Shown one piece after another: positions 27,106-33,270 of a DNA stretch of 33,348 nucleotides. This stretch comes from Alphaproteobacteria bacterium (GTDB lineage Bacteria; Pseudomonadota; Alphaproteobacteria; GCA-2731375), in contig JAPYPT010000019.1 of the NCBI GenBank assembly GCA_029937535.1, positions 1 through 33,348 of the forward strand, read 5' to 3'. The number at the start of each line of letters is the position of its first letter. Within the stretch, counting starts at the first letter, position 1. Position numbers and translations under genes: made by a program. The notes under the pieces are model-generated. The model was given only the letters and a program-made list of their open reading frames with translations, did no database searches and had not been told where the DNA came from.

Positions 27106-28617
27106 TCAGGCTTCAATGGTGTAAATTTCCGTCGGCTCGGGCACATTTCGCAGTTCGAATTGACCAAGCGGGGTCAGGTCCTCGCCCAGAGCGCGTTGTA
27201 CGGCGCCCGACAGCAGCAGGGATTGATCCAATACCTTGCATTGATCGGACAACCGGGCGGAGAGGTTCGCGGCACTGCCGATGACGGTAAAATCCAGCCG
27301 CTCCGGGGCGCCCACATTACCGAACGTCACCTCGCCCACATGCAGGCCAATGGCGCAACGCAGGGTTGGCGACTGGGTCTCGGCCAATCGGGCAATAATC
27401 TCCAACGCGGCGTCACGGGCCAGACCGCAGGCATCGGCGGGGTCGCCATCCACCGGGAAAATCGCCAGCACGCCATCGCCAATGAACTTCAGGACCTCGC
27501 CCCAGCGGGAGAGGATCGGGTCGGTGACGGTCTCGAAAAAGTCGTTCAGTAAATCCAGATAAGCCAAGCGGGGCAATGAGGCCGCCAGCTGCGTGGAATT
27601 GCGCAGGTCGCAGGTCAGGATCGCCGCCGAAATCTCTTCTCCCGCGCCGCGCTGGGTTTCCCCGTTCAGAACACGGGTACCCGACCGCATGCCCAGATAT
27701 GTAGTCAGCAATGTTCGGGTATTCTGGCGCAGGGTCATGGTTTCGTAAAACCGGCTGAGCCCAAACACACATTGAAAAACCGAGCCGAGATCGGCGGTGG
27801 AAAAACCCTCCGCGTGGTCGGAGGTCAGGGTCATGGTATTGATCTGGCCGTCGGAAAACGGCAACGGCATGGCGACGTAATCCGTACCGCCCTGCGCGCG
27901 CAGCTCTTCCATCACGGGAAAGCGGAATTCGCTCTCCCCGTCCCCATCAAGGCGCTGGCGCACGCCGCCCAAACCTTCACTGACATAGCGCACGGGACTG
28001 GTCAGATAGTCCGGTTGCGACAGCATGCCGTGCGGTGTGTCCACTTCGCGGACACCGTCCACATCCCGGCGCCAGATAAAGCCACGGCCCGCCAATTGCG
28101 GATGCAGGGTCCAGATACCGACGCTGATACGCCATAGGGGGATGCCGCCGGCGATCATGGCCTTGCCGAATTGCTCCGTCAGTTCGCCGGCGGTCTGGCA
28201 CATCCAGGCATCGCGCAGCAGCCATTCCACCAGGGGCCCCGAGTAATCCATTCTGGTGGTGTCCAGACACAACGGCTGATCCAGGCCGTCATCGAGAAAT
28301 GCGATATACCCCGCAACCTCGCGCACGGTCGCGAACGGCGTTTCATAACTGAAGGCGCCATTTTCGACCCTGCCGCCGGGCAAATCCAGGTGCCAATAAC
28401 TGGCCGTGCCCTTAAAGGGACAAAATGTGCGCCGGTCCGAGGGCTGCAAAATGCCCGTCATCACCGCATCGCGGGGAAAATATTGGTAGGACGGCAACCC
28501 GGTTTCATGCATCACCAAAACGTCCGCGCTGTCCGCCAATAGAACGCCGTCACGCACGGCTTGTACCTGCCCGGGCGCGGGCACGACAGTTATTCGGTAG
28601 GCTTTATGTTCGGTCAT
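27106..28617 (-). CDS. DUF427-class III adenylate/guanylate cyclase fusion protein
   Basis: A 503-residue protein with an unusual order. Residues ~15-115 are a DUF427 domain (VLLADSADVLVMHE, YQYFPRDAV, then TFCPFKGTASYWHL). Residues ~125-320 are the sensor-like region common before alphaproteobacterial cyclases (GGIPLWRISVGIWTLHPQ, GRGFIWRR). Residues ~330-500 are a class III cyclase domain with metal aspartates D337 (LTCDLRNST) and D381 (KFIGDGVLAIF), purine-selecting K377, an aspartate in LDFTVIG, and N/R in AANLSARL. All catalytic positions are present. There is no membrane segment. A GTG nine bases upstream (28626) could add three residues. It is divergent from a second cyclase. What DUF427 senses or does here is unknown. 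Confidence 0.9.
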   Translation of the reverse strand: MTEHKAYRITVVPAPGQVQAVRDGVLLADSADVLVMHETGLPSYQYFPRDAVMTGILQPSDRRTFCPFKGTASYWHLDLPGGRVENGAFSYETPFATVREVAGYIAFLDDGLDQPLCLDTTRMDYSGPLVEWLLRDAWMCQTAGELTEQFGKAMIAGGIPLWRISVGIWTLHPQLAGRGFIWRRDVDGVREVDTPHGMLSQPDYLTSPVRYVSEGLGGVRQRLDGDGESEFRFPVMEELRAQGGTDYVAMPLPFSDGQINTMTLTSDHAEGFSTADLGSVFQCVFGLSRFYETMTLRQNTRTLLTTYLGMRSGTRVLNGETQRGAGEEISAAILTCDLRNSTQLAASLPRLAYLDLLNDFFETVTDPILSRWGEVLKFIGDGVLAIFPVDGDPADACGLARDAALEIIARLAETQSPTLRCAIGLHVGEVTFGNVGAPERLDFTVIGSAANLSARLSDQCKVLDQSLLLSGAVQRALGEDLTPLGQFELRNVPEPTEIYTIEA

Positions 28618-28620
28618 ACC

Positions 28621-28637
28621 GTTCACTATTTATGAAC
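28621..28637. promoter_or_regulatory. Inverted repeat overlapping the -10 of the DUF427-cyclase promoter
   Basis: GTTCA-N7-TGAAC is a perfect 5-bp dyad just upstream of the ATG at 28617. It covers the predicted -10 region and could be an operator. It is not the alphaproteobacterial LexA box, which is a direct GTTC-N7-GTTC repeat. Confidence 0.4.
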
Positions 28638-28717: not shown

Positions 28718-30043
28718 ATGACCATGGGCCAAGCCGTTACGGCAACGGAGGACGATGGCAATTGGGGGCGCATGAGCCGCCGGTTGATATTTCTGGACAA
28801 CGAGCTGGAGCGTGATTTCCGCAGCGCCGAGCGGAGCGGGAATTTGGGTCAGGCACGGTTCGTGCTGTGGCTGGCCTTAATAATTCTGGCGATATTTGCC
28901 GTCTCCGATACTTTTGTCTTGCCCGCCGACGCCATGACATTCGTCGCCTGGCGCGCCGGGCTGTTGTCTTTGGTCCTGGTTATCCTATTGGCGGGGACCT
29001 ACGCCCCCTTTTTCCGCACCCGCTGGCCCGGGTTGATGGCCCTGGCCGTGCTTTCCATGACCATTGCCGCCGGCCTCACCAATGCCCTGGTGGACGTTCC
29101 GATGCTGTATCCGTCGGGTTTCATGCTGTTGATCCTGGCCGGCTATTTAGTGGTGCCGTTAATATTCGCCTATTGCATCGGCACCATGACCGCGGCGACG
29201 GTTATTTATCTCATATTTACGTCTTTCACCGAAGTGGCGGATGACGGCATCCTGGCGCAGTATGCGTTGCAAATGCTGATGGCGAACGTGATCGGTATCG
29301 CCGCCCTGCACCGCTCGGAACGCATCCGCCGGATGGAACATCTCAATGCCCGCCGTCTGGATGAGCAGCGCCTGCGGTACCGAGAGCTGTTGACCTCGAT
29401 CCTGCCCGAACCCGTGGCGGACCGTCTGCAACGCGGCGAGACGGTGGTGGATGAATATGCCGACGCCACCGTGCTGTTCGCCGATATCGTCGGCTTCACC
29501 GCCCTGGCCGCCCGTTTTCGGCCCGATCAGATCCTCGATCTGTTGAACCGGATCTTCGCCAGGTTTGACGACCTGACGGCGGATCATGGCTTGGAGAAGA
29601 TCAAAACCATCGGCGACAGCTATATGGCGGCCGGCGGCGTCTTCGGCGATCAATCGGAATACCTGCCCGCGATGGCGGATTTGGCCCTGGCCATGCAACG
29701 GGCGGCCAGTCAAATCGATGATCCCGATGGCCAGCCCCTGCATTTGCGTATTGGTATCCATGTGGGCGGCTTGACGGCGGGGGTTATTGGCCAGCGCCGC
29801 TTCATGTATGATCTGTGGGGCGATACGGTCAACACCGCCTCGCGCATGCAGACATTGGGGGAGCCGGACCGTATTCAGGTTTCGGACGATGTGCGCCAAC
29901 GACTGGATGCCCGCTACCGACTGGCGCCCAGGGGCGAGATCGCGGTCAAGGGCAAGGGACAGATGGCGACCTGGTATCTACTGGGCCGCGTGGATGACGA
30001 CGAAGATGAAAATGCAGACGGAAAGGCAGCGGACATAACATGA
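28718..30043 (+). CDS. Membrane-bound class III adenylate/guanylate cyclase
   Basis: A 441-residue protein with a short cytoplasmic N-terminus, about six hydrophobic segments between residues 48 and 200, a helical linker ([20 protein letters not shown]) and a cyclase domain from about 250. Metal aspartates are D256 ([12 protein letters not shown]) and D300 ([12 protein letters not shown]). The segment [13 protein letters not shown] supplies the substrate aspartate and the N and R of the transition state. The catalytic set is complete. The layout resembles six-helix membrane cyclases such as rhizobial and mycobacterial types. GGGGAGCGAGGG precedes the ATG; a second ATG is six bases on. The esterase start overlaps its stop (ATGA), so the two are co-translated. 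Confidence 0.93.
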
Positions 30044-30989: not shown

Positions 30990-31988
30990 TTGACCCTAGA
31001 CCGGCGCTTTTGCGTGGCGCCCATGATGGAATACACAGACCGGCATGAGCGTTATTTTCTGCGCCTGATCAGCCGCCGCGCCTTGCTGTATACGGAAATG
31101 GTCACGGCGGAGGCGGTCATCCATGGCGAGCGTGAACGCTTGCTGGGTTTTTCGCACGAAGAACACCCCATTGCTCTGCAACTGGGCGGCGCCGACCCCA
31201 ATCGCATGGCCATGGCCGCCACGATCGGCCAGGAATTCGGTTATGACGAAGTGAACATTAATGTGGGCTGTCCCAGTGACCGGGTGCAATCGGGCCGCTT
31301 CGGCGCCTGCCTGATGGCGGAACCCGACATCGTCGCCGCTTCGGTCCGGGCCATGCGGGCGGCCACGGATTTGCCCGTTACCGTCAAATCGCGGATCGGC
31401 ATCGATGATCGGGACGACTATGATTTTCTGCGCGGCTTCGTCGAAGTGGTGGCCCAAGCCGGGTGCCTAACCTTCATCGTTCATGCCCGCAAGGCCATAT
31501 TGTCCGGCCTTAGCCCAAAACAAAACCGGGAAATCCCACCTCTCGATCATGACCGCGTCTACCGCCTGAAATCGGATTACCCGGAGCTTGAAATCATCAT
31601 CAATGGCGGCATCGATAGCTTGGCGCAATGCCGCGAACATCTGGCTCATGTGGATGGCGTGATGATGGGCCGCACCGCCTACCAGGCGCCCTATATTTTG
31701 GCCGATATCGACCATGATCTGTTCGGTGATGACGGGCCTGTTGCCAGCCGCACGGCTCTGGTCGACGCCATGCAGCCCTATATCGCGCGGCAATTGGCCA
31801 AGGGGGTACGCCTCAACGCCATCAGCCGCCACATGCTGGGCCTCTATTACGGCCAGCCCGGCGCCCGGACCTGGCGGCGTTATATCTCTGAACGCAGCCA
31901 TCTGCCCGGCGCTGACGGCGGCCTGTTGCAGGCCGCCGTTGAACAGCTACCGGAAGCATACCAAAGGTCACTGATAGAGACCCTTTGA
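30990..31988 (+). CDS. dusA: tRNA-dihydrouridine synthase A
   Basis: A 332-residue FMN-dependent TIM-barrel enzyme that reduces uridines (U20/U20a) in the tRNA D-loop. It follows E. coli DusA closely: VAPMMEYTDRHERYFLRLISR, LLYTEMVTAEAVIHG, HPIALQLGG, NINVGCPSDRVQSGRFGACLM (catalytic C107), IGIDDRDDYDFL and SGLSPKQNREIPPLD. The start is a TTG at 30990; later ATGs would delete the conserved VAPMM strand, and GAAGG lies about 11 bases upstream. The last nine codons and stop (YQRSLIETL) lie in the left arm of the palindromic element, so its C-terminus appears to have been rewritten by that insertion. Confidence 0.96.
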   Translation: MTLDRRFCVAPMMEYTDRHERYFLRLISRRALLYTEMVTAEAVIHGERERLLGFSHEEHPIALQLGGADPNRMAMAATIGQEFGYDEVNINVGCPSDRVQSGRFGACLMAEPDIVAASVRAMRAATDLPVTVKSRIGIDDRDDYDFLRGFVEVVAQAGCLTFIVHARKAILSGLSPKQNREIPPLDHDRVYRLKSDYPELEIIINGGIDSLAQCREHLAHVDGVMMGRTAYQAPYILADIDHDLFGDDGPVASRTALVDAMQPYIARQLAKGVRLNAISRHMLGLYYGQPGARTWRRYISERSHLPGADGGLLQAAVEQLPEAYQRSLIETL

Positions 31989-31990
31989 GA

Positions 31991-32084
31991 TCGCCTCCGG
32001 ATCTCATCGGGTAGGAGTGAAGCCGCCGGCGATACGGTGTATCGTCAAGGCTTCATGACGCCATCCGATGATATCCGGAGGCGA
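31991..32084 (+). repeat. Left hairpin unit of the palindromic element
   Basis: Stem 31991-32010 pairs with 32065-32084 at 19 of 20 positions. Inside, TGAAGCC pairs with GGCTTCA, and CGATAC (32030-32035) pairs with GTATCG (32039-32044) around a GGT loop. Blocks CGGGTAGGAG and GACGCCATCCGA recur in the right unit. Confidence 0.8.
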
Positions 32085-32091
32085 CCGCAGG

Positions 32092-32185
32092 CGCCTTGCG
32101 GACGATTTCGGATGGCGTCGCGCACGGCTGACGATGCACCGCATCGCTGCACCGCACGCTCCTACCCGAAATCGCCCGCAAGGCG
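32092..32185 (-). repeat. Right hairpin unit of the palindromic element (inverted homologue of the left)
   Basis: Stem 32092-32111 pairs with 32166-32185 at 19 of 20 positions. The inner hairpin is CGATGC (32132-32137) with GCATCG (32141-32146), loop ACC, which reads GGT in the orientation of the left unit. The reverse complement shares CGGGTAGGAG and GACGCCATCCGA with the left unit. Confidence 0.8.
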
Positions 32186-32217
32186 TCTCAAAGGGTCACT
32201 ATCAATGACCTTTGGTA

Positions 32218-33270
32218 TCAGTTCACTAGGACGTAACGGCCCACCGTCTTGCCCTCGCGCAGATCGGCGATGGCGTCGCCGGCTTCGCTCAGCGGCCGGG
32301 GCGTGGTGGGCACGGGCTTTACCTTGCCGGCCTTCACCAATGCCATCAGCTCGTGCATTTCCTCCAACGTGCCTACATAGCTGCCGATGATGCTCATCAT
32401 CTTTAGCGGCAGGGTCGCCAGGGGCAAGGGCACGGCGCCACCGAACAGGCCGACGACGACAATGGTGCCGCCGCGCGCCAAGGTCTGCATGGCGAACCCG
32501 CTGGAGGCCGGCGCGCCGACGAAATCGATCACCCCATGAACGCCGCCGCCGGTGCTTTCCATCAATTCGGCCACCGCGCTCGCATCGCCGTTATCGATCA
32601 CCATGTCGGCGCCGGCCGCCAGTGCCGCCGCGCGCTTGGCCGGATCGATATCGGCGACCACCAGCTTGGCGTTGACCACGGCCTTGGCCATGCCGATGCC
32701 GGCCAGGCCCACACCGCCCGCCCCGATGATCATCAGATGTTCCTCCGCCCGCAAATGCTTCAGCTTTTTCAGGGCGCTGTAGGCGGTTACGCCGGAACAG
32801 GCGCAGGTCGCCGCATGGGTTTCCTCAACGCCCTCGAAGGGCACCAGATATCTTGAATGCTGGGCAATGCAATATTCCGCATAGCCGCCGGCATAGCGGG
32901 TACCCGGCGTGCGCGGCGCGGGACATAGCAGTTCCTCGCCGCGCTGACAGACCTTGCATTCGCCGCAGCCGATCCAGGGGAAGTAGATGCGTTTGTCGCC
33001 GACTTCGACGCCGGTCGCGTCCGGACCCAGGGCGACAACCTCGCCCAGAATTTCATGGCCCATGGTGAAGGGCAGGGTCATGCCGCGGTCTTCCAGGCGC
33101 ATCTTCACATCGCCGCCCATATCGAAATAGCCGTCCCAAAGATGGATGTCGCTGTGGCAGATGCCCGAGGCAGTGACCCGCAACAGCACCTGTGTGCCCT
33201 GTGGCGCCGGCGTATCAACCTCCCGCTCTTCCAAGGGTTCGCCCCATTTCGTGATCTGATAGGCAAGCAT
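32218..33270 (-). CDS. Zinc-dependent alcohol dehydrogenase (medium-chain dehydrogenase/reductase)
   Basis: A 350-residue MDR-family enzyme. Catalytic zinc ligands are C38 (GICHSD), H72/E73 (MGHEILG) and C158 (CACSGVTAY). C102, C105, C108 and C116 (GCGECKVCQRGEELLC) bind structural zinc. GAGGVGLAGIG is the Rossmann motif and the acidic VVADID after it favours NAD. It oxidises a primary or secondary alcohol or reduces an aldehyde; the substrate is unknown. GGGAGGA precedes the ATG by a few bases. Its TGA stop begins at the junction with the palindromic element, whose first base is the A of the stop. The 78 bases upstream to the window edge show no clear gene or convincing promoter. Confidence 0.95.
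   Translation of the reverse strand: MLAYQITKWGEPLEEREVDTPAPQGTQVLLRVTASGICHSDIHLWDGYFDMGGDVKMRLEDRGMTLPFTMGHEILGEVVALGPDATGVEVGDKRIYFPWIGCGECKVCQRGEELLCPAPRTPGTRYAGGYAEYCIAQHSRYLVPFEGVEETHAATCACSGVTAYSALKKLKHLRAEEHLMIIGAGGVGLAGIGMAKAVVNAKLVVADIDPAKRAAALAAGADMVIDNGDASAVAELMESTGGGVHGVIDFVGAPASSGFAMQTLARGGTIVVVGLFGGAVPLPLATLPLKMMSIIGSYVGTLEEMHELMALVKAGKVKPVPTTPRPLSEAGDAIADLREGKTVGRYVLVN

Follow-up and report, generated by a model that had tools for sequence, protein, structure and literature searches.

MITEs of the IS5 or IS1380 type are short, non-coding, bounded by inverted ends and flanked by target duplications, and these features are shared by the element described here, which in two lineages also appears to carry the ends of autonomous insertion sequences. 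To our knowledge, MITE interiors are normally common only within one family of terminal inverted repeats (TIRs). In contrast, the present element keeps a fixed-length double-hairpin interior over unrelated termini and transposase families. REP/BIME sequences with RAYT proteins resemble it in their inverted hairpins, GTAG-like motif, intergenic position and strand-specific fold, but the element has 97-nt units, 32-bp TIRs and a target duplication, with no adjacent RAYT. The CIR repeats of Caulobacter and Brucella, the closest two-armed repeats of the Alphaproteobacteria, are intergenic as well, about 110 bp long, with a conserved GANTC in a terminal loop and without end-to-end pairing (PMC2229807). 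The ends of the element do pair, and identity with CIR is rejected because 29 of 32 copies lack GANTC. Palindromic intergenic repeats are also known from other Alphaproteobacteria, namely RIME and Sm of rhizobia and Br-REP1/2 of Bradyrhizobium (PMC2573895, PMC5082802); the published Br-REP consensus differs from the element.

No family in Rfam 15 scored above its gathering threshold (best 24 bits, against 197 needed), and no description was found in a literature search that left out most subscription papers and ISfinder, such that an existing name for one TIR lineage is not excluded. The first-pass annotation had likewise been unable to name a matching family. As far as the literature could show, the element family is previously undescribed, and we place it among the MITE-like elements, as one whose double-hairpin core is conserved, strand-specific and not tied to the terminal type.

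The window copy and the mobility of the element

The window, which is the whole 33,348-nucleotide stretch of alphaproteobacterial DNA that was analysed (contig JAPYPT010000019.1), contains a palindrome at 31958–32218 (table 1). The target duplication puts the limits of the element itself at 31959–32217. On recount, 31 of the 33 positions of its terminal arms pair, leaving two mismatches, as the first-pass annotation had stated, and the arms enclose two inverted homologous hairpin units of 97 nt each rather than the approximately 94 nt given there. The gap had also been said to contain nothing but repeats. The inverted repeats are indeed there, but the gap is not purely intergenic: a dusA-like ORF (30990–31988) extends into the left arm, which supplies its last codons and stop, and the stop of an alcohol dehydrogenase (ADH) ORF (32218–33270, minus strand) starts at the final base of the right arm. 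Folded as a single strand, the palindrome reaches −103.6 kcal/mol, compared with −50.4 ± 3.9 kcal/mol for dinucleotide shuffles (z −13.6, 0/100). Elsewhere in the window, two adjacent divergent genes (27106–28626 and 28718–30043) resemble, by eye, nucleotide-cyclase-domain proteins.

Table 1. Coordinates of the window copy of the element
Feature	Positions	Strand	Remarks
Left target triplet	31956–31958		GCA here, TNA family-wide; pair GCA/TCA in window copy
Left terminal inverted repeat, 33 bp	31958–31990	+	Also codes last residues and stop of dusA ORF
T-type hairpin, 97 nt	31990–32086	+	Functional strand +; covariance model 100 bits on + vs 39 bits on −
T hairpin, conserved internal-loop strand GGGTAGGAG	32009–32017	+	Near-invariant columns, 24 units, several genera
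T hairpin, conserved opposing strand GACGCC	32057–32062	+	Invariant columns
Linker between hairpins	32087–32089		3 nt here; ~3–6 nt elsewhere
C-type hairpin, 97 nt	32090–32186	−	Functional strand −; covariance model 101 bits on − vs 36 bits on +
C hairpin GACGCC	32114–32119	−	Column conservation and sequence
C hairpin GGGTAGGAG	32159–32167	−	Column conservation and sequence
Right terminal inverted repeat, 33 bp	32186–32218	−	Arm pairing
Right target triplet TCA	32218–32220		Doubles as ADH stop (TGA on minus strand)

The element moves, as is observed from its copy number (several to dozens in a genome), an empty orthologous site and the duplication of a TNA target. The window genome holds about 20 or more copies (25 BLAST matches), and the TIR pattern occurs there 17 times in forward and 17 times in reverse orientation, compared with 0 for the reversed control. 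Among the relatives compared, which were alphaproteobacterial metagenome-assembled genomes, several of them marine going by their record names, the window element has matches in ten of ten congeneric genomes, in one further genus of its family and in a single genome from another family. In an initial alignment of 36 copies the usual size was approximately 258–265 bp and the terminal repeat read TACCA-N8-TGATAG-N-GACCCAT-NN-AGA, the variable octamer of which differs among copies and is largely identical at the two ends of any one copy. The target duplication is a 3-bp TNA, mostly TAA/TTA followed by G. It is exact in 36 of 61 copies and fails in the other 25, including the window copy, where it is mutated (GCA/TCA). 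TNA is present on both flanks in 52 of the 61, and in 36 of these 52 the central base is identical, against 17.8 when shuffled (0 of 20,000 shuffles reach this value).

In seven congeners the orthologous dusA/ADH junction is empty and the two stops nearly abut, and the window insertion is thus lineage-specific. Of some 50 copies, approximately 18 have the stop codon of a flanking gene as their duplicated triplet (distance 0), which means that insertion leaves the flanking protein intact. The 261 bp contain no transposase gene, with a longest stop-free stretch of 87 codons and stops in all frames in half of the copies. Terminal inverted repeats, a target site duplication, an empty orthologous site and the lack of an internal transposase gene are features that the element shares with MITEs. 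The first-pass annotation had suggested a non-autonomous mobile element or a structured RNA/DNA family, a proposal that a single copy without homologues or membership in a catalogued family would have refuted. Neither is the case, the latter as far as Rfam and the literature searched can show, and the many copies with conserved ends, the target duplications and the empty sites in congeners confirm the mobile character. Genes called by a simple codon-usage script place 26 copies between tandem, 12 between convergent and 12 between divergent genes, with 2 inside a called ORF. Copies thus do not favor gene ends above promoters, which speaks for a selfish role and against one in 3′UTRs.

Derivatives with one hairpin missing also carry duplications, and one such type occurs twice in genome G021; the full core is therefore not strictly needed. 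The minimal derivative (L129, 521–574) is a perfect 54-bp palindrome of only two TIRs with a TTA/TTA duplication. Two 158-bp copies (L079, 918–1075; L144, 329–486) have a single hairpin whose 5′ arm is of one type (T or C) and whose 3′ arm is of the other, a product of exchange at the hairpin tips. Other odd copies include an element apparently inserted in another (L167 in G021, 965–1336, with the nested 173-bp copy at 1164–1336) and a 301-bp relative with ends TACCAAAGGTCATTGATATTGACTCC and a different interior (L170 in G021, 1010–1310). In Nitratireductor thuwali a 174-bp derivative (L333, 2503–2676) lies inside an ABC-transporter operon just past the permease CDS, which ends at 2500, and is overlapped by a short annotated "hypothetical protein". 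In G000 and G001, elements of two different subfamilies lie close upstream of an apaG-like gene, the same gene in both cases but reached independently (L015, 1–157; L053, 1530–1790), at different distances to the gene start.

Conserved core hairpins and changing ends

Each full copy contains one T and one C hairpin, inverted relative to each other. In 24 units drawn from several genera, nearly all of the basal stem sequence has been replaced between lineages, yet the stem remains paired: 96.8% of cells pair, 29 of 35 pairs have changed on both sides, and covariation is 0.751, compared with 0.245 when shuffled and at most 0.148 when slid. Sequence is conserved in the internal loop, [G/C]TAGGAG opposite GACGCC, and in the apical CGATG...CATCG. 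On the strand reading from TAGGAG to GACGCC, a choice made by core sequence and not by the model, the inner stem has 116 G.T against 7 A.C. Counted by lineage, which does lean on the strand choice of the model, G.T exceeds A.C in 26 and the reverse holds in 2. Lower stems have 38 G.T and 19 A.C. The excess of G.T on one strand of the inner stem indicates that selection acts on each inner hairpin in its folded state, as a single strand of one polarity; whether it is recognised as ssDNA or as RNA cannot be distinguished from the present data. The covariation and the strand-specific wobble pairs confirm that the structure is under selection. In the outer arms there is no wobble bias (13 G.T vs 19 A.C), and an RNA-level pairing constraint was rejected there on that ground. 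The outer palindrome is maintained at the DNA level, perhaps partly through template switching, as the chimeric and deletion derivatives suggest.

A covariance model of the single hairpin finds matches in 36 of 385 sampled alphaproteobacterial genomes and 30 of 276 genera, with a patchy distribution. The common layout is a TIR of approximately 31–35 bp, a 97-nt hairpin, a linker of 3–6 nt, an inverted 97-nt hairpin and a second TIR, amounting to 260–275 bp in nearly all cases and 288 in one copy from G197. This layout recurs in G346, G118, G306, G015, G135, G240, G286, G300, G067, G376 and others, and across those genomes the terminal sequences are unrelated (GTGTGGTG..., GGGTCCGGACCC..., GGAGCCTGTCTGAG..., GTACCCCC..., TAGCCCGCATTTCTCACC...). 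Most TIR types other than that of the window lie at a CTAG-like site. Core structure, length and internal-loop sequence are conserved over many alphaproteobacterial families, and stems and termini turn over with compensation. The window TIR type is also present in G021, G208, G317, G279 and G672, and a 261-bp copy of this type with a TGA/TGA duplication is found on a plasmid of Agrobacterium sp. MA01; on plasmids of sphingomonads the element is 268 bp long. BLAST of the whole window element against plasmids and phages gave no match, but short TIR queries did match. The phylum-level search (R1) gave hits from the same class only, and since the class make-up of its sample was not shown, absence outside the Alphaproteobacteria is not established.

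Judged by terminal sequence, the ends of two other lineages equal those of autonomous insertion sequences. The outer 17–20 bases of the TIR in G300 and G376 match the termini of two IS1380-family insertion sequences of approximately 1.66 kb (PF13701), from Pseudomonas putida pKF715A and Bradyrhizobium sp. 62B p1. The TIR in G306 and G378 likewise matches the termini of approximately 840-bp IS5-family insertion sequences (PF01609, PF13340) in Methylocapsa and Sinorhizobium fredii. One and the same interior thus rides on termini belonging to two or more transposase families. For the window TIR type, no transposase-bearing copy was found in the TIR scans or at PF01609/PF13586 loci: none of these (IS4/IS5) loci in ten element-bearing genomes has window TIRs, and G208 and G279, both carriers of the element, lack PF01609/PF13586 hits. 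Lone TIRs in G001 and G317 were considered as an autonomous partner and rejected, as they are internal fragments without a transposase.

Competing explanations and the proposed mechanism

Given these findings, we favor the hypothesis, at a probability of about 0.72, that this is a non-autonomous, MITE-like element of approximately 261 bp which DDE transposases move in trans and which has a conserved module of single-strand hairpins, recognised by an unidentified factor. It could instead be primarily a structured RNA, one hairpin per direction folding in the transcript of the neighbouring gene and protecting or terminating the mRNA, with spread being incidental. The strand-specific G.U preference, the conserved internal loop and the frequent position of copies directly at stop codons would all be consistent with such a role. 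Yet gene contexts follow the 1:2:1 ratio expected at random (12 of the 52 copies lie between divergent genes), the outer arms are without wobble bias, the transposition footprint is clear and no Rfam family corresponds, and we consider this explanation unlikely. Folding is strand-specific, either strand offers one correct hairpin, and gene ends are not preferred to promoters; together these facts favor a role in propagation of the element over one at mRNA 3′ ends.

Two further explanations are weaker still. That the element is of the BIME/REP type and moved by a RAYT (Y1) transposase would agree with the single-strand, strand-specific constraint, with the resemblance of GTAGGAG-stem-CGAC to published REPs (Xanthomonas GTAGGAGCGCACCtGGGCGCGAC, also Pseudomonas; PMC2817692) and of the inverted units to BIME-1, and with the occurrence of Y1 genes in 9 of the 11 genomes bearing the element. 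The motif likeness offers a lead to RAYT-like recognition. However, neither core nor TIRs flank any of the Y1 loci, Y1 is absent from the carriers G208 and G279, and a 97-nt unit is far larger than a REP; long TIRs and target duplications are moreover features of DDE transposition. Mobilization by RAYT is rejected, given that Y1 genes are present but not associated with the element, and we regard the explanation as a whole as very improbable. We give even less credence to an inert palindromic repeat with an unselected core, in which nothing but the correction of quasi-palindromes by template switching maintains the pairing. The outer arms do covary without wobble bias, and the chimeric and 54-bp perfect-palindrome derivatives show template switching within the element, but an unpaired internal loop has been conserved across families instead of being corrected into a perfect stem, and the wobble imbalance of the inner stem also speaks against it. 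Inertness is thus largely refuted for the core; the outer arms remain open.

Under the favored MITE-like reading, DDE transposases would cut and paste the element in trans via its ends, which may be replaced or drift as partner transposases change. An unidentified factor that serves propagation of the element may recognize each hairpin in folded, single-stranded form, whether ssDNA or RNA, and the inverted pairing would let either strand present one correct hairpin. More tentatively, and with considerable doubt, the double-hairpin core could be a module of its own that a factor conserved widely among Alphaproteobacteria reads in folded, single-stranded form and that has moved between unrelated transposon shells (IS1380-like, IS5-like and others), making this a two-tier mobile element.

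A non-coding interior that is conserved class-wide while the ends change affiliation is unusual for MITEs, and conservation over changing ends implies that the interior does something selectable, either for the element or for the host. The strand-specific wobble points to folded ssDNA or RNA and an unidentified factor, a question that is addressable in cultured strains, namely Agrobacterium sp. MA01, Sphingobium yanoikuyae and Novosphingobium. In many alphaproteobacterial genomes, the element may also lie behind palindromes that lack annotation and behind breaks in the assembly.
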